Assembly (NCBI RefSeq): GCF_000400735.1
Contig: NZ_KE007365.1
Location: 206,188 to 270,187, forward strand
From: Acinetobacter tandoii DSM 14970 = CIP 107469
GTDB lineage: Bacteria; Pseudomonadota; Gammaproteobacteria; Pseudomonadales; Moraxellaceae
Length of the DNA: 64,000 bases
Direction: 5' to 3'
Below, one piece after another: positions 4,084-40,900 of this stretch. Made by a program: the position numbers and the translations under genes. The notes beneath the pieces were generated by a model. The model was not told the DNA's origin. It made no database searches and saw nothing but the letters and a program-made list of their open reading frames with translations. Within the stretch, counting starts at the first letter, position 1, and the number at the start of each line of letters is the position of its first letter.

Positions 4084-5322
4084 TTAGGCAACTTTTTGAG
4101 CTGTTTTCATGGCAAGAAAATGCTGAGCTTGTTCCGCATCAAACCACCACGGTGCAAAGTCACGTGGGTCATCAAAGTTATTTGCCATCACTGATGCAAT
4201 CGCTTGGTTTTGGCTGGCAGCGGCAAGTAATTCCATGACATGCGGTTGTGGTGGCAACAGCAGACTATTGGTCCATGCCACGACTTTTTCGGCGTATGCC
4301 CAATAGCGTTCAAAGGTTTGTTGCATCCATGCTTCACTAAAGGCTTGATCATCATTAGACAGAATGGCATCGAAATAGATCTTGCTGCATTTGGCTGCAT
4401 TATTTGAGCCTTGACCAGTAATTGGATCATTTACAACTAAGGCATCTGCCATACCAAAGACTTTTTTGCCTGAAGGCAGCGTCAAAACAGGTTTACGCAC
4501 TGTTGGTGGGAATCGACCTGCCAAATAACCGCCTGCATCGGTAAGTTCAACATTGCTGCAACGCTCAAATTCCCATGGCGCATATTTTTTAAGCAGTTCA
4601 AGACTGCGCTGTAAATGCTGTTCAGGCGTTTGTACATCTTGCCAACAGTCCATAGGGCCGTTGGGTATGCCTTCAAAAACCATAATGTCGCATGGTCCAT
4701 TAATGGTCAGTGCTGGGAAAGAGAAGTATTCGCCCACTTCTGGAATGATGTTGAAAGTGACGCGTGAATATGGCGAGACGGGCTTCATGCCTTTGACATA
4801 GGTCAGTGCCAAGGCACGTTGCGGTCGATCAAAGGTGCTTCGTTCCGCATCACGTTCAAACTGTTTGACGACCTCACCCTTTCCTGCGGCGAGTAAGACC
4901 AACTCATATTCATTGGCCAATTGCTCTAGTTCTTCAATACCAACATCCTGAATGATTAATCGACCACCACGTTTTTCAAATTCCTGCATCCAAAAGGGCA
5001 TTTTTACGCGCTGATCGACCGATTGTGCATAGCGTTCCAGACGTGCACTCCATTCAAAGGCTTTGCCACCATGTTCAGGATTGACCAAAGCCAAGCCAAT
5101 TCCTTCGACTGCAGGACATTGCTCTTCCCAAAAGTTCAGCCCTAAGTCCCGTTCCGTTTGTAAAGCCGTATGAAACATACATTGACTCGACATGACTTTG
5201 CCCTGACGGATTTCATCGGCAGTACGGTTGGTAATTAAGGTCACATCATAGCCTGTATCTAACAGACCTAATCCAAGTTGCAGACCTGATTGTCCTGCTC
5301 CAACAATTGCAATACGGCGCAT
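4084..5322 (-). CDS. iifC: FAD-dependent indole oxygenase (styrene monooxygenase type)
   Basis: A 412-residue group E flavoprotein monooxygenase. The N-terminus carries the FAD-binding Rossmann motif VGAGQSGLQLG, and the ending FAPWWFDAEQA is characteristic of the StyA/indole oxygenase group. It takes reduced flavin from IifD and epoxidises the indole 2,3-bond. Length matches StyA (about 415). The ATG at 5322 has a GGAGAAG ribosome-binding site; an upstream TTG at 5334 is less likely. The neighbouring SDR and the dienelactone-hydrolase-like protein are exactly the partners of IifC, which favours indole over styrene. No styrene-oxide isomerase gene is seen. Confidence 0.87.
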   Translation of the reverse strand: MRRIAIVGAGQSGLQLGLGLLDTGYDVTLITNRTADEIRQGKVMSSQCMFHTALQTERDLGLNFWEEQCPAVEGIGLALVNPEHGGKAFEWSARLERYAQSVDQRVKMPFWMQEFEKRGGRLIIQDVGIEELEQLANEYELVLLAAGKGEVVKQFERDAERSTFDRPQRALALTYVKGMKPVSPYSRVTFNIIPEVGEYFSFPALTINGPCDIMVFEGIPNGPMDCWQDVQTPEQHLQRSLELLKKYAPWEFERCSNVELTDAGGYLAGRFPPTVRKPVLTLPSGKKVFGMADALVVNDPITGQGSNNAAKCSKIYFDAILSNDDQAFSEAWMQQTFERYWAYAEKVVAWTNSLLLPPQPHVMELLAAASQNQAIASVMANNFDDPRDFAPWWFDAEQAQHFLAMKTAQKVA

Positions 5323-5367
5323 GTGCTTCTCCAAATTTTTTAATGTTCTAAATAATGAATGTCTGTT

Positions 5368-6153
5368 TTAACTGGCTAAGCGTGGAATGGCAGGTTGTGC
5401 CCCTTCAGGTCCCATGACCGAATATCCACCATCGACGGCATAATCTGCCCCAGTTACAAAACTCGCTGCAGATGACAGTAAAAACTGCACCACATTGGCC
5501 ACTTCTTCTGGATGTCCTAAACGGCCTAATAAGTGATAATCCGCTGCAACGCCATCTGCTTTTTCACGGTTGTTGCCGCTGACTTCGGCAATCACCCGCG
5601 ACCATGTCCAACCTGGGGAAATCGAATTGACCCGAATACCATCAGCGGCAAAATCCATGGCCATACTTTGAGTTAATTGGCGAATAGCCGCTTTGGATAC
5701 GGGATATAACCAGCGTCCTGTTTGCGCATACTTGGCAGAAATCGAAGTAAAATTCACAATCGAACCACGATGCTCTTTTAAGTCTGGATAAAAGGCACGC
5801 GTTAACTCCACTACAGACAACACATTGACATCCAATGCCTTTAGCCAGTCCTGACGCGAGGACTGAAAGCCATCATCTAAGTAAGTACATGCCAAGTTCA
5901 CCAAACAACTGACTTCCCCCAAATGCTGATGAATGTTCTTGACTGCCTGTTGAATCGCCACATCACTGGTCAAATCCACTTGTATGAACATCACGTCATA
6001 AGGAAAACTTTCTGCAACTTTCTTTCCGTTGGCATCGATATCTAGAATGGCAACGCGTGCGCCTGCATTCACCAAAGCCTGAACCACGGCCTTTCCAATG
6101 AGGGTTGCACCGCCACTGACCACGGCAACCTTGCCTTTTAAATCAATGTTCAT
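5368..6153 (-). CDS. iifB: Short-chain dehydrogenase of indole degradation
   Basis: A 261-residue SDR. The cofactor motif reads VVSGGATLIGKAV near residue 10, and the catalytic pair is in YPVSK with the Ser in TSISAK. In the described pathway IifB acts on the dihydroxyindoline made by IifCD and so prevents spontaneous indigo formation. The ATG at 6153 has a GAGGGAG ribosome-binding site that overlaps the end of iifA (stop at 6156-6158), showing translational coupling. The role is taken from gene order and the published cluster; the SDR family itself says little about substrate. Confidence 0.82.
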   Translation of the reverse strand: MNIDLKGKVAVVSGGATLIGKAVVQALVNAGARVAILDIDANGKKVAESFPYDVMFIQVDLTSDVAIQQAVKNIHQHLGEVSCLVNLACTYLDDGFQSSRQDWLKALDVNVLSVVELTRAFYPDLKEHRGSIVNFTSISAKYAQTGRWLYPVSKAAIRQLTQSMAMDFAADGIRVNSISPGWTWSRVIAEVSGNNREKADGVAADYHLLGRLGHPEEVANVVQFLLSSAASFVTGADYAVDGGYSVMGPEGAQPAIPRLAS

Positions 6154-6155
6154 AA

Positions 6156-7415
6156 TCACACTCCCTCACCAATGGGTTTACCTTCGCTGCTGTTCCATGA
6201 CGGCATCAGCGTATTGGAAGGTAAATCTTCATTCAGGAGTTTTTTAGCCGTCTCAACACCGGCCACAGGCAATCCCTCAGGGTTGAGTAAACCAATTTGC
6301 ACCAGTACCGATGCCTGATCCCAATAAATATGTTCATGACACAGTTTAGAACCGCGAAATTGAATAACACCCAGCATTGGAATTTCGACGTATTTGCCTG
6401 TTGGTTTCACCCCTGGCAGTAGCCAATCAATTTCGGTGTCGTGAGTAAAACTCATGATAAATTCATCGACCACCTGTGTTGATCCCACCGTGCGTGATAT
6501 AGAGGTAATCTTCATGTCTTCAGGGTTTTGATGCACAAAATGGTAGCGATAGAAACGGGCCAACTGACTTTGACCCACACCACCTGTTAGCGTGGGAATG
6601 TGATTGACATAAGGTTCTGCCACCATGGTTGCCATGGTCGCTGGGACATCGCGGGTATCAAATTCATGTCGAATATGCTCTTCCCATAACGCCACCAAGT
6701 CATAATGCGGTCCAATCATGTCATGCAGTGCAGTCACCGTTCGCTCATGGGCAAATCGGGCTGATGGTTTGTGGTAATGTTCACTTTTTGGTCTAGCAAA
6801 GGCATGATCGACATCTTCATAGACATAGGCTTTGACATTGCTATATTGACTCGCGGCTTGCAAAATCGCTTGTCGTGCATCTGGTGGAGTAAATTGATCT
6901 AACTCTGCGATATGCAGTACCAAACGTCCTTTTAGGTTAGCTAGCTCATCCAGTACATTTTCTAAACCAACCCCGTAGTAGCCAACGGCGCAAGCAACTT
7001 CTGGTAAACGACAGGCAGCTAAATACGCCAGTTTTCCGCCCAAGCAATACCCAACAACACCCAGCCCTGTAGACATATCACATTCAGGTCGTGTTTGCAG
7101 ATAAGTCAGACTGTCCTGAATATCTTCTACCCCTAAATTTTCATCGTATTGTTGATAAAGTGCATAAGCTTTTTGAAAATCTTCTGGGGTATAGCCCAAT
7201 TCAATATTGGCCGCACTCCGCCAAAACAAATCAGGAACAAGAACGGTGTATCCCTCTTCGGCAAGAAAGTTTGCCTTTTCCCGCATTGCGGCATTGACCC
7301 CAAAGATTTCCTGACACAACACAATGCCTGGACCTTTACCTGAAGATGGGGCGACCAAGTAAGCACTAAATTGTTTACCAGTCTCGGTTTTTATCTGAAT
7401 CGTTTGACCAGCCAT
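6156..7415 (-). CDS. iifA: Dienelactone-hydrolase-like/SnoaL-like two-domain protein, anthranilate-forming enzyme
   Basis: The protein has 419 residues from the ATG at 7415 (CAGGAG ribosome-binding site). Residues ~1-240 are an alpha/beta-hydrolase of the dienelactone hydrolase type with a Cys nucleophile in GYCLGG (C124), D173 in ELDQF and H204 in DVDHAF. Residues ~250-400 form a second domain resembling SnoaL/NTF2-like folds. In Acinetobacter sp. O153 the first gene of the cluster, IifA, is reported to give anthranilic acid and to be comparable to cofactor-independent oxygenases. It is the first gene of the four-gene operon. Which domain is catalytic cannot be decided here. Confidence 0.82.
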   Translation of the reverse strand: MAGQTIQIKTETGKQFSAYLVAPSSGKGPGIVLCQEIFGVNAAMREKANFLAEEGYTVLVPDLFWRSAANIELGYTPEDFQKAYALYQQYDENLGVEDIQDSLTYLQTRPECDMSTGLGVVGYCLGGKLAYLAACRLPEVACAVGYYGVGLENVLDELANLKGRLVLHIAELDQFTPPDARQAILQAASQYSNVKAYVYEDVDHAFARPKSEHYHKPSARFAHERTVTALHDMIGPHYDLVALWEEHIRHEFDTRDVPATMATMVAEPYVNHIPTLTGGVGQSQLARFYRYHFVHQNPEDMKITSISRTVGSTQVVDEFIMSFTHDTEIDWLLPGVKPTGKYVEIPMLGVIQFRGSKLCHEHIYWDQASVLVQIGLLNPEGLPVAGVETAKKLLNEDLPSNTLMPSWNSSEGKPIGEGV

Positions 7416-7451
7416 AATCGTCAACTCCTGACTTTGTTATGGCTTTATCTT

Positions 7452-7500
7452 CTATCCAAATTTTTAGGATGACTGTCCAAAAGCTGCGAGCACTATCCAA
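7452..7500 (-). promoter_or_regulatory. Three phased repeats upstream of iifA, candidate AraC-type operator
   Basis: The octamers ctatccaa (7452-7459), ctgtccaa (7473-7480) and ctatccaa (7493-7500) recur at 21 and 20 bp, two helical turns, 37-85 bp upstream of the iifA start. AraC-family activators bind direct repeats with such spacing. A further copy in opposite orientation (ggatag, 7631-7636) lies toward the MFS gene. The rest of the 465 bp gap (7416-7880) shows no gene. Confidence 0.5.
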
Positions 7501-33665: not shown

Positions 33666-34494
33666 CTAGAGTTCATCACCTAAGCCAAACCCACCAAAAA
33701 TAGGACTATCATCAGACCCACTTTGTGATGAGCCATTAGTACTAGAGTTTTGTGATCCAGTATCAACACTTGATGTTCCTGAATCTTTATCAGGTGGAGC
33801 TCCATCCATTGACGATGGATATGGATCTACAACCAACTGTGTACTTAACGTTTCGCACTGATTTCGTTGTACTGAATCTGAATAAAAAGCGGTTGAATAT
33901 TCTGCATGATAACTTGCCGTCCAAGTCTGCAAAATATTCGGTAAATTAAAAGCATAATAATATGTTCTTTCTTCATTAGGCTGATATACATTTACCGTTT
34001 CGTCATTGAGACAATAATCGCTTTGTGTAATTTTTACTGTTTTACTACCACTTAGCTGGAAAGCAGCCTGACAACTATCTATATATTCATAGACTCGTGT
34101 TGGTAGTGTATTTTTTACAGTCACTCGTAATTTAAATTTGATTGGTGGTAAGGTTTTGCTATTCACCCCAAACAAATCTTGCCTATCACCCGCAAAAACA
34201 GGGGTTTCGTTATAGTGTTCTATAAACTGTATCGTTCTTTCTACTCCATAACAGTTTTGCACTACAGGATCAGGATAAGCAACAGCATATTCTGCATCAT
34301 CTTCCATTCTATCTGGTTCAACATCTGGTCGAGGATTTGGAGTCGGGTTTGGAGTTCCGATCGGAATTCCGCTACCAGTCCCAGTTCCCCCTCAGACTCA
34401 CTCCGACACTAACATTACCATTTTCATCTACGCATCCTGATAAAGCTAAAGTACCTATGAGGATAAGGTGGAATCTTAATTGTGATTGCGACAT
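33666..34494 (-). pseudogene. Putative lipoprotein with a frameshift in a G tract
   Basis: From the ATG at 34494 the minus strand encodes a lipoprotein signal peptide (FHLILIGTLALSGC) and about 38 residues, then stops in that frame. The longer open frame from 34307 to 33666 continues the protein (213 residues, four Cys, C-terminal Ser/Gly/Asp-rich tail). The two frames join if one G is removed from the run of five at 34387-34391, giving GTGTGSGIPIGTPNPTPNPRP as a linker, a plausible Pro-rich spacer after a lipid anchor. Function unknown; I recognise no domain. It may be a real loss of function, a phase-variable gene or an assembly error. Confidence 0.65.
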
Positions 34495-34833: not shown

Positions 34834-35872
34834 GGCTTTGTTGCACAAACCTATCTCTAAAGGCTTATTCCACAATATAATTTTCAAATGAATAAGCCTA
34901 CACCCAAAATGTATCGTACAACCAATTGGTCTTCATATAACCGAGCTCTCATTAATCGTGGAAATATTGCCATTTGGTTTGATCCTACTACGCAATGGTA
35001 TGCCCCATCAAAAGGCAAACAAGGACGAAATCAAACTTACTCCGATGCAGCTATCCAATGCTGCCTAATGATTAAATCTCTCTTTCGATTGTCTTTACGT
35101 ATGGTCACTGGCTTTGTTCAAAGTCTCATCCATCTTTGTGGGTTAAATGGGGTAGCGCCAGACTACACTACAATTTGTAGGCGACAACAACGTATTGATA
35201 TTACGATTAGCTATCAAAAAAGTAGTGAGGGACTACATCTACTTGTCGACTCTACTGGTTTAAAGTTTATAGGTGAAGGTGAATGGAAACGAAAGAAACA
35301 TCAACCTGAATATCGTCGACAATGGCGCAAACTTCATATTGGTATAGATGCTGAAACACTTCAAATACGGGCAGTTCAGCTCACAACCAACAATGTGAGT
35401 GATTCACAGGTGCTTGGTCATTTACTTGCTCAGATTCCAGAAGATGAGAGAGTTGACTCCGTCTATACCGATGGAGCTTATGATACCAAACAGTGCCGAA
35501 AGGTCATTGTGGATCGGCAAGCACAAGCAGTGATTCCACCAAGAAAAAATGCGAGGCCATGGAAAGATAAAAAGATGGGCTCACTAGAACGCAATGAGTT
35601 GCTTCGAACAGTTAAGCGTTTAGGAAGAACTATTTGGAAGAAATGGTCAGGCTATCATCAGCGAAGTTTGGTTGAAACCAAGATGCATTGCATCAAATTA
35701 TTGGGGGATAAACTCAGTGCGAGAAATTTTCAAAGCCAAGTCAATGGGATTCATGCACGTGTGGCAGTATTAAATAAATTTACAGACTTAGGCAGACCAC
35801 ATACCCGAGTTGTCACTTAAATTAGAGTAGATATGAGAAATCTTAACTTTTAAATCTTTGTGCAACAAAGCC
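34834..35872 (+). mobile_element. Complete IS5-family (IS903-group type) insertion sequence
   Basis: Perfect 16-bp terminal inverted repeats: ggctttgttgcacaaa at 34834-34849 and its complement ending at 35872. It is 1039 bp long with one intact transposase gene. The 9 bp on either side (gtcatctgt and gtaaaaact) do not match, so no target duplication is left. This suggests that a deletion or recombination removed one original flank. The right end cuts an Rhs gene. Confidence 0.88.
34888..35820 (+). CDS. IS5-family transposase
   Basis: 310 residues, intact DDE transposase. The first Asp is in LHLLVDSTGLKF, the second in VYTDGAYDT, and the Glu in RSLVETKMHCIKLLGDKL, the Y-(2)-R-(3)-E-(6)-K-like signature of the IS5 family. 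It fills the element apart from ~55 bp on each side. A 200-bp fragment of a related transposase is found at 45902-46101. Confidence 0.92.
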   Translation: MNKPTPKMYRTTNWSSYNRALINRGNIAIWFDPTTQWYAPSKGKQGRNQTYSDAAIQCCLMIKSLFRLSLRMVTGFVQSLIHLCGLNGVAPDYTTICRRQQRIDITISYQKSSEGLHLLVDSTGLKFIGEGEWKRKKHQPEYRRQWRKLHIGIDAETLQIRAVQLTTNNVSDSQVLGHLLAQIPEDERVDSVYTDGAYDTKQCRKVIVDRQAQAVIPPRKNARPWKDKKMGSLERNELLRTVKRLGRTIWKKWSGYHQRSLVETKMHCIKLLGDKLSARNFQSQVNGIHARVAVLNKFTDLGRPHTRVVT

Positions 35873-37486
35873 GTAAAAACTATCTTTTTCATAGATGTAA
35901 TGCTTGGTCAGTTCCTCTGTGGACTCATAAGCAAGCGTATCGCCATCCCATCCATAAATGACGTTCTGCTCTTGACCAGTATGGTGATGCTTACTCCGCT
36001 TTTGAATACGGCGGCCTAATGCATCATAGCGATATTCTGCCATATATTGACTATTACGGCTCTTCACCATACGGCCATAGACATCCCACTCAAGGTTTAA
36101 ATCACCTTGACTCGTTTTTTGTCTTACGAGTTGTCCATAAGCATCATATTGGTATTGTTGACCTAGATATTCTTTAACGACGTTATTAACTAAACGGTTA
36201 TAACCATAGTCTTTTTCTTCAGCACTTTGTGAATGGCTTTGAGCCTTCTGACTATGATACGAATCTATAATATTACTGGCAGGGTCAAAGTTAAACGTTT
36301 CTTTTCCAAGTTTACTGCTCGCTTCAAGTAAACGCCCTACAGGATCGTACTTATAGGCAATATTGTCACGGCGTGTATCTCGAATTGCCGTTAGCTCTCC
36401 TGTTTTGTCATATTGATAAAGACGCTGCACCAGTTGACTGGTCTGCTCTAATGCATTGTTGTGCGGCTTATATTGGTTTTGATAGCCATTTTCATGTTCA
36501 CTCAGCATCATTTGGCTTTTCAAACGACCTGCCAAGTCATATTGCTGCTCTTGACTCACTCCATTCGCATAGTGACGTGCAATTTCTCGGTGTAAATCAT
36601 CACGCTCAAAGCTAACTAGGTCTTGACCATTTACGATTAAACTTTGTACATGACCGCTACCATAGGTCAACCAGTCAATAATCTGCCCGTCTGGACGAGT
36701 TGTTTTGATTCGATCATTAATTTCATCATATTGGTGTTTCCACACCGCGGTTTTATTGATTTTATAATCTTGCTGGTGTTCTTGTACTAAATTGCCAGCC
36801 GCATCATAAAACCATTGTAAATTGCTTTAAGCATTTTTAGCTTGAATGATTCGCCCCATATAATCATAGGCAAATTCTTCAGTCTGTTTTTCTTCGAGTT
36901 CTAAACCATAGCGACCATAACCCGCAGTACGCTGTTCTAAACGCCCCATACTGTCAAAAATAAATTGTTGAATTCGGTCTTTCGGTGCAGCTCGGTCTTT
37001 TAGGTCTTGTCCATAAGCAGATGCGACTTCAATACTGGTTGCCAGTTGGCCCGAATTTTCATCATAGTGGTATACCGTTTCCTTACCATCAAAGTCGACT
37101 TCTTTAATTAAACGCCCACCAAGGTCATAAAAAAATTGATAACTTGCACCATTTTCATTAATGAGTCGGGTTAGACGTCCCAATCGATCCCATTTATATT
37201 TTAATTTGTGGTTTAAAGCGTCTGTACGAGACAGAATTAAACCCGCCTCATCATATTTGAGTGACTTACTTCCACCTTTAACATCTGTAATGGAAGTGAC
37301 TAAGCCCATGGCATTGTAAGCATAAGCAGTTTCATGCTTAAGTGGATCAATTTCTTTGATCAGGTTTCCAGAACCATCATATTGCTTAAACCAACGTCCC
37401 TGTTCGGCATCAACCATACCAGTGAGTTGATTTTTTTCATCATATTCAAAATAACTTGTCGCACCATCATCTTGAGTTGTAGTCAA
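35843..37486 (-). pseudogene. Orphan Rhs core fragment, interrupted by a stop codon and by the IS element
   Basis: The minus strand encodes ~545 residues of Rhs/YD repeats closely related to the middle of the complete Rhs protein at 37943-42751. It begins without a proper start (TTG at 37486). A TAA at 36827-36829 interrupts the frame between IQAKNA and SNLQWFYD, where the intact paralogue continues without a stop. The 3' end is lost: after YIYEKDSF the frame runs into the IS5 end (35872), so the hyperconserved terminal core and any toxin tip are gone. This is the usual picture of a displaced, silent Rhs cassette. Confidence 0.85.
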
Positions 37487-37942: not shown

Positions 37943-40900
37943 CTAATAATCGTATTTTACACCAAGATGGTCTAGTGCACCTTGACATGAACGACATGTT
38001 TTTTTAGGAGTTCCATGTCCTTTACCTGAATTACCTATATTCACAGCACAACAATGTCCACCTGATATCGAACCATTATTTGTACTATCTTCTAATGCTT
38101 GATTCGCACAAGATATTTCGCCACAGTATCCATGCCATTTTTCTCTTTTATTTACAGGAACACTGTCTAAAGCTTCTTGAACTTTTGGATGCATGGTTCC
38201 AATATTACCACTAACACCAGTATAGACTTTTCCATTTACTGTTAATTGAGCTGCAGCACCTTGATTTTTACCACTCGCTAAAGCTATATCAGCTGCATCT
38301 TTTACATTGTGTGCACCTGATCCTAAGCGTTTATTTAATCCCAAAGGATCAATCCAATTTACTGGATTTGGTGCATATGCATACACATTATCTCCACCCA
38401 ATAACCCAATAGGATCTTTGGAAATAAAACGCCCTACATATGGTGAATAATAACGATAACGGTTGTAATGAAGCCCTGTTTCTTGGTCGAAATATTGCCC
38501 TTGAAAACGGATATTATTACTGATGATCTCAGAGTCTTCAAAGAAGTTAGATTTAGCTTTTTCAGCTTTACACTCACCCCAAGCCTTATATTCGGCTTTC
38601 CAAATAATTGCACCTGTATGGTCGGTCATTTCTTGTGGTGTACCCAAATGGTCACAGTGGTAGAACCATACATCATCAAAGCCTTTACTTTGCTTGGTGA
38701 TTTTCCATAGTGGATCACGATGTACACTATATGGTTTATCTGACCAATCAGGTGTTTGATGTAATTCAATAGGGCTTTGATAGACAGCTTGTAGCATTGG
38801 TACAAAGCTGTCTTTTTCGTAAATGTAATGCTTGGTGACTTGTTCTGTCGATTCATAAGCCAATGTGTCACCATCCCATCCATAGATGATGTTATGTTCA
38901 GCACCTGTATAGTGGTGCTTACTAAGTTTTTGAATCCGACGACCTAAAGCGTCATAACGATAAACAGTTGTATATTGAGCATTATGGCTATGTACTAATC
39001 TCCCTGATGCGTCCCATTCTAAAATTAAATCACCTTGACTTGATTTTTGCCGAGTGAGCTGACCATAAGCATCATACTGATATTGCTGATCAAGATACTC
39101 TTGAACCACGTTATTAACAAGTCGATTATAACCATAGCGTTTTTCTTCAACTGTTTGAGAATCGCTTTGGTTTTTATTTTTATTATATTGATCGATAATA
39201 TTATTTGCTGGGTCAAAATCAAACGTTTCTTTGCCTAATTTACCATTCGCCTCTAGCAATCTGCCTAAAGGATCATACTTATAACTGATACTTCCTCTTC
39301 GAGTATCCTTAATATCTGTTAACTGTCCTGTTCTATCATACTTGTATAAACGCTGGACTAGTTTTTGCGAATCTTTAAGTGCATTATTTTGTTGTTTAAT
39401 CGATGACTGATAGCCAAACTCATGATCACGAATAACTTGCTGCTGAACTAATCGCCCCATTACATCATAATGTTGCTCTTGACTAATCCCATTAGCATAG
39501 TGACGGATGCTTTCTCTGTGTAGATCATCTCTTTCAAAACTGACAATGTCTTGACCATTGACAATCAAACTTTGTGCATGAGCGCTTCCATAGGTAAGCC
39601 AATCTATATTTTGACCATCGGGACGTATTGTTTGAATCCGATCATTAATTTCGTCGTAGCCATGTTTCCAAACGGCAGTAGTTTTAGCTATAAAATCTTC
39701 ATGATGTTCAATGTTCAAATTTCCGACAGGGTCATAAAAGAATTTCAGTTGACTTTCAGCGTTCTTCGCTAAAATAAGCCTCCCATGTGAATCATATGCA
39801 AACTCTTCAATTAATTGTTGTTCTAATTCATGTTCGATTGATCCAAAACCGATTTTACGTTGCTCTAGTCGTCCATTAATGTCAAATTCGAATAGCTGAA
39901 CTCTATCTTTACCTGAAACCACTTTTTCTACTGTACTTAGCAACTCACCAGTTGAATAACGATAATTATATTCGGTATTTTTTCCATCAAAATCTATTTC
40001 TTTAACTAAACGACCAACTTTGTCATAAAAAAACTCATATTTTGCTCCATTCTCATTAAATAAATTTTTCAACCGACCAAGTAAATCCCATTCATATTTC
40101 AATTTATGATTATTAGCATCAATTTTTTCAACAATAAGCCCTGCTTCATTATATTTGTATTGAGTAACTTGATTATTTGAATCTTCAAAAACCAATACAC
40201 GCCCTTCTGCATCATGTATATATTTTACAACCGTGCCATCTGGAGATTTTATAGTTTCTAATTGACCATTTGCATTGCGTAATAAACTACTATCTTCATG
40301 ATTTTCGACTGAGTAAAAATATTCAGTTTTATGACCTAAAGCATTTTCACTGCAAACTAATCTTCCATCATTATCATATACCCATTTACTCGACTTACCT
40401 GAGCAATCCGTAAATTCCACAAGATTTCCAGCACTATCATACTGTAAGGTTTTAACTCCATTTTTTGCATCAGTAATACTTATTGGCAAACCGGATTCAT
40501 TGTAGTTGTATTTTATCTCTCGTTTAAGCGGATCAATTTCTTTTATTATGTTTCCTTTTTGATCATATTCTCGGAACCATCGACCACCATTCGCATCAGA
40601 AATTGCAACTGGTTGGTTTTTTTCATCGTATGCAATCATGATTATCGAGCCATCTGGTTGAATCTTTTTAACTAAATTTCCAGATTCATCATATTCAAAA
40701 CAAGTTACTGCACCGTTAGGTTCAAAATGCTTAGTAATTCTTTTTGCATGGTCGCGGTAAAACCACTCCTCTAAGCCTGACGCATATTCAATTGATGTCG
40801 TGTATCCATCAATGTCATAATTGTGGACCGTTTCTGCTCCTGTAATATCTTTTACAGTTGTAGATCTAAAACGATTTGACCAAGTTAAAGTAACCTCAAA

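Follow-up and report, generated by a model that had tools for sequence, protein, structure and literature searches.

The last 130 residues of an Rhs protein of Acinetobacter tandoii DSM 14970 are very probably a swappable, T6SS-delivered toxin, namely a zinc deaminase of the YwqJ family that is neutralised by the 124-aa protein encoded downstream. The genes lie within a stretch of 64,000 nucleotides that was analysed as a whole (contig NZ_KE007365.1, positions 206,188 to 270,187; hereafter the window), and their coordinates are given in Table 1. This kind of toxin is already known, as Rhs-YwqJ effectors have been catalogued in Acinetobacter. Tme22 of A. baumannii, an Rhs effector with a YwqJ-deaminase tip, occurs 6 times in 97 A. 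baumannii genomes (PMC6833914), and eight Acinetobacter proteins that combine RhsA with a YwqJ deaminase have been counted (PMC6838775). Like the window protein, these effectors, Tme22 included, carry the YwqJ-deaminase tip on an Rhs protein, are encoded near vgrG and belong to the same genus. A modestly new element is the immunity protein, which represents a distinct family without a Pfam or NCBIfam model and also turns up, with no detectable toxin, in four further Acinetobacter genomes.

Table 1. Features of the locus and related genes (window positions, except where a locus handle precedes the numbers)
Feature	Position	Strand	Remarks
vgrG, 1009 aa	42759..45788	minus	directly upstream of rhs; Phage_GPD, T6SS_Vgr, DUF2345 and Phage_base_V above cut-off
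Rhs effector, 1602 aa	37943..42751	minus	ORF; RHS repeats, Rhs core and C-terminal tip
C-terminal toxin tip, YwqJ-like deaminase domain	37943..38335	minus	130 aa and stop, after DPLGL
HGYCGE, tip residues 68-73	38117..38134	minus	C71 proposed as zinc ligand, E73 as proton shuttle
CRSC, tip residues 114-117	37985..37996	minus	C114 and C117 proposed as zinc ligands
Probable immunity gene, 124 aa	37547..37921	minus	starts 21 bp past the toxin stop
Second, broken rhs, two ORF fragments	35843..37486	minus	36881..35873 has 72.5% DNA identity to the intact rhs
Insertion sequence	34834..35872	plus	inverted ends of 16 bp; adjoins the broken rhs
DDE transposase of the insertion sequence	34888..35820	plus	PF13737, PF01609
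Toxin-less immunity homologues	L014:6001-6372; L015:6006-6392; L016:about 5213-5461; L017:about 7132-7491

A probable YwqJ-like deaminase tip

Two motifs, HGYCGE and CRSC, had led the initial annotation to propose a YwqJ-like deaminase, with a search against the PF14431 profile as one way of checking it. Both motifs are present, with C114 standing 43 residues past C71. Taken alone they are weak evidence: a pattern of [HC]xE followed 30-60 residues on by CxxC, which was written after the sequence had been seen, turns up in 1034 of 100000 shuffled versions of the tip (about 1%), and thus support from homology is needed. The PF14431 profile (YwqJ-like deaminase) matches the tip with 37.8 bits against a curated cut-off of 25.9 (E 2.7e-9), across tip residues 25-125 and profile positions 16-137 of 138; the whole Rhs protein scores 30.7 bits. 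At the level of sequence, this is not a chance match, and the deaminase call is borne out both by it and by the motif layout, which is conserved among ten members of the family.

No Pfam family other than PF14431 matches the tip up to E 1. The BaDTF1-3 subfamilies of deaminase toxins have separate Pfam models of their own, and membership of the tip in these subfamilies is not supported, PF14431 being its only Pfam match up to that threshold. NCBIfam gave no credible match for the tip (two at E about 0.03, far under their cut-offs), and PADLOC gave none for the tip-bearing toxin or the immunity protein. YwqJ-like domains are rare: PF14431 was found in 3 of 293 genomes in the order and 2 of 398 in the phylum, the A. 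tandoii genome being counted each time, and in one of 14 control genomes, that of Bacillus subtilis. Within the genus, PF14431 and a profile of five tips detected a YwqJ tip in the same four of 175 genomes, again including that of A. tandoii.

Structure prediction failed for the tip. The AlphaFold model, built from a two-row alignment (window and A. apis), has a mean pLDDT of 38.9, so that the fold and the zinc cluster rest on homology; the order of its elements (two strands, a helix from residue 71 and a helix from residue 115) is deaminase-like, which at this pLDDT is no evidence. As for relatives for a deeper alignment, four viral-contig scans yielded none and genome contigs yielded one, A. 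apis; a phage collection held no match for the tip. A single-sequence search of the PDB with the tip brought up no deaminase, its one match (E 2.9) being unrelated. When a profile of ten tips was used, YenC2 ranked first (E 0.0055) among 12 matches up to E 10, and the remaining 11 were unrelated.

Conservation of the proposed active site

Ten tips were aligned. Four are from Acinetobacter (the window, A. apis (L002), L003 and A. baumannii (L021)), and the others are Paraburkholderia (L022), L026 (same class), Streptomyces L027 with L023, and L024 with L025 (same order); L004 was omitted because it is nearly identical to L003. Seven records of a plasmid collection also match the tip, of which H1, H2, H5 and H7 were used and H3, H4 and H6 were not.

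In this alignment, the CGE and CRSC of the tip are in register with the motifs of the other members. C114 and C117 are invariant (10/10), position 71 is Cys in eight members and His in two, and position 73 is Glu in all except Streptomyces L027, which has Leu (9/10). Such a pattern indicates that C71, C114 and C117 are likely zinc ligands and E73 the likely proton shuttle. Seven of ten members have His at position 68, and seven at position 107. Two residues of the window tip are less common: the one preceding CxxC is Thr, as in 2/10 members overall, and the middle residue of the CxE motif is Gly, where Ala was read from the alignment in 6/10.

The initial annotation had also pointed to two further Cys pairs, the SC of CGEISC and HCC. 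Both are indeed present; they are not conserved, position 76 being Cys in only 3/10 members and C95 and C96 being cysteines in the window sequence only. A second metal site formed by these residues is unlikely and was rejected on the same grounds.

It might be argued from the want of a confident fold, and from the recurrence of the loose motif pair in about 1% of shuffles, that the tip merely resembles a deaminase and is in truth a nuclease, or a toxin in which zinc has a structural role. This is very improbable, as the curated Pfam cut-off is surpassed by about 12 bits, the glutamate is kept in nine of ten members, and a zinc deaminase would be expected to tolerate the exchange of Cys for His at its first ligand.

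The Rhs protein and its T6SS setting

PF05593, PF03527, DUF6531 and PF14431 each exceed their Pfam cut-offs in the Rhs protein, as does the Rhs core domain TIGR03696 of NCBIfam. The gene order of the locus is vgrG-rhs-immunity, and a T6SS cluster is found on a different contig of the same genome, with a single TssC match genome-wide. Eight of the 15 ORFs of at least 130 aa in the stretch read there were scanned, and seven of the eight matched, namely VasE (TssK), VipA (TssB), VipB (TssC), Hcp, gp25 (TssE), TssF and TssG; L020:149-724 was without a match. The adjoining vgrG and the cluster elsewhere in the genome thus agree with the T6SS context that had been assumed for the toxin. The features by which T6SS Rhs effectors are recognised were all found: RHS repeats, an Rhs core, a variable tip after DPxGL, an adjoining vgrG and, elsewhere in the genome, a T6SS.

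A PAAR domain is absent from the Pfam matches of the Rhs protein up to E 1. As described in PMC6838775, PAAR is missing from Acinetobacter Rhs proteins with one exception, so that it is no defining trait of the Rhs effectors of this genus. The junction before the tip, DPIGLLGG...DPLGL, agrees with the motif at which RHS effectors of A. baumannii are reported to be cleaved (PMC6833914).

The probable immunity gene

The 124-aa downstream gene most likely protects the producer from its own toxin. Its homologue in A. apis, with 42% identity (BLAST), comes directly after the A. apis tip; there, the start of the immunity gene overlaps the tip gene by 11 bases. In Pfam, the 124-aa protein matches no immunity family up to E 1 (two unrelated matches, the best at E 0.086), and in NCBIfam it has no match at 0.01. 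Imm6 is an immunity family linked to YwqJ deaminases (PMC3482391); the Pfam search up to E 1 gave no match to it.

The best of five AlphaFold models of the 124-aa protein is all-helical with a mean pLDDT of 81.3, the other four having 45-54. Foldseek returned 122 PDB matches for this model up to E 10, none of them at or below 0.001, and the best VIA-align 2 score was Z 4.8 among 754 chains aligned. Chain B of 7jtu, an entry for a Pseudomonas syringae cytidine deaminase T6S toxin, aligned with Z 3.6 and an rmsd of 4.5 over 100 residues; it was not used, since the Z of a helical bundle may reflect merely a common arrangement. Searching the PDB with a profile built from four immunity proteins gave, up to E 1, two centrin-like matches and nothing else. 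The plasmid collection held no match for the immunity protein, nor for the DNA of the toxin-immunity pair.

Immunity-like proteins also lie beside the CAE-type tips of Acinetobacter L018 and L021. They are 64% identical to each other and have no detectable relation to the 124-aa protein of the window, which means that related tips are accompanied by different immunity families. A. baumannii L021 thus differs from the window in its tip, which is about 40% identical and has CAE, and in its immunity-like gene. In the L021 record, a transposase gene stands between the YwqJ tip and the immunity-like gene (L021:5941-7796), and the tip frame overlaps the element; the record, of 4.09 Mb, is filed as a plasmid and, at that size, is probably a chromosome. 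In two Acinetobacter genomes, the 16-kb stretches around a YwqJ tip (L018 and L019) contain arrays of further Rhs tips and many small, possibly immunity, genes, as recognised by eye.

In the two YwqJ members with an HAE-type active site (L024 and L025), the protein encoded after the tip is 270-284 aa long. The genes after the CxE tips of Acinetobacter and Paraburkholderia are far shorter (124-163 aa). The type of active site and the type of immunity may go together.

Immunity homologues without a detectable toxin

Homologues of the immunity protein occur in six of 175 genomes of the genus: that of A. tandoii itself, G003, G046, G099, G107 and G122. In the last four, no YwqJ tip was detectable, either with PF14431 or with the profile of five tips. 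The G046 homologue, 70% identical, comes after other Rhs tips and small genes. That of G099 (39%) is a solitary gene flanked by a hydrolase gene and a purN-like one, and at the same hydrolase-purN site G122 has a copy with six stops; the G107 homologue is partial. The neighbours in these genomes were named by eye. Beyond the genus, the only one of 293 genomes of the order to match the profile of four immunity proteins was that of A. tandoii. This distribution suggests that the toxin-less homologues are defence genes that have been kept; these genomes may, however, encode a tip that diverges too far for either profile.

Cassette history and selection

Among the closest known relatives is the A. 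apis ANC 5114 locus (L002). Upstream it has an ORF that was recognised by eye as VgrG-like, and it shares a tip with CGE and KTCRSC and a downstream gene of the same immunity family; it differs in that its tip lacks HCC, in the rest of its Rhs protein and in the overlap of the tip and immunity genes. Identities between the window and A. apis are 75.6% for the tips (76% when rounded), 51.4% for Rhs from residue 351 on and 24.6% (25%) for the first 350 residues. Against A. baumannii L021 the corresponding values are 39.8%, 63.8% and 23.5%. The opposite order of tip and core identities in the two comparisons implies that tip and Rhs core have had different histories, as is the case for exchanged tips.

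Between window and A. apis (NG86), dN is 0.18 and dS 1.24 for the tips, and 0.42 and 1.30 for the immunity genes. For the tip, a dN this far below dS indicates purifying selection. This bears on the question of whether the tip might be a decayed or inactive remnant, a view to which the broken rhs copy and the insertion sequence next to it, the Thr before CxxC (2/10 members) and the CGE where six of ten members have Ala in the middle could lend some weight. That the tip is such a remnant is nonetheless very improbable, given the full-length open frame, the presence of all four proposed catalytic residues, a dN well below dS and the fact that A. apis has identical CGE and TC variants. Near the insertion sequence there is also an ORF of 213 aa (33666..34307, minus strand), for which Pfam gave no match up to 0.1 and NCBIfam none up to 0.01.

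Mechanism and substrate

It is reasonable to assume, from the gene order and from known Rhs biology, that VgrG and the Rhs shell would carry the tip into a neighbouring bacterium, where it would probably be freed by cleavage at the conserved DPLGL junction. Judging by family and conservation, C71, C114 and C117 would then hold the zinc in the target while E73 moves the proton, and the tip would remove an amino group from a base by hydrolysis. In the producer, the 124-aa, probably helical protein would give protection, most likely by binding the tip.

Which base is attacked can be given as a best guess only. Cytosine in nucleic acid is put slightly ahead of free nucleotides, with something else in third place: the former has about an even chance of being the substrate, and a free nucleotide or nucleoside is a possible one with clearly less probability. 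The set of all-cysteine ligands (CxE and CxxC) resembles that of free cytidine deaminases and was counted in favour of a small substrate. On such an account, which is tentative and has roughly one chance in three at best, the tip would deaminate small molecules, whether free cytidine, dCMP or some other nucleotide, and starve or poison nucleotide pools with no mutation of DNA.

The B. subtilis YwqJ-YwqK pair, which is compared here by description only, gives the family its name and has an LXG carrier and the antitoxin YwqK. According to PMC8321402, YwqJ had a marked effect on growth upon induction and none on the chromosome or rRNA, and its authors suggested small molecules as a possible target. 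These observations favour a small substrate and argue against nuclease action; a nucleic-acid target is neither shown nor excluded by them, for the state of the chromosome and rRNA would presumably not reveal the deamination of bases. A further point against the small-molecule account is that members of three other families of deaminase toxins, BaDTF1-3, act on DNA (PMC7901873). DddA and SsdA (BaDTF1 and BaDTF2) are, as is proposed for the window tip, interbacterial toxins of the deaminase superfamily with a zinc site and an immunity protein, but they belong to other subfamilies, and their DNA activity has been demonstrated (PMC7901873). YwqJ is not mentioned in the main text of that paper, and no deamination product of the YwqJ family is reported in the literature surveyed, which mostly lay outside subscription papers.

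Significance

The most far-reaching reading combines two proposals: that the tip deaminates cytosine in nucleic acid, which would make it the first YwqJ member shown to do so, and mutates surviving competitors; and that toxin-less immunity is kept as a defence in other Acinetobacter. Taken together, these are rather unlikely. YwqJ domains are annotated as deaminase toxins, and the compact tip of 130 residues, together with its probable immunity partner, lends itself well to testing. Should the tip act on DNA, the mutagenic toxins used between bacteria would gain a further family. Should the immunity genes of toxin-less genomes prove functional, some Acinetobacter species would guard against a weapon that they do not carry.
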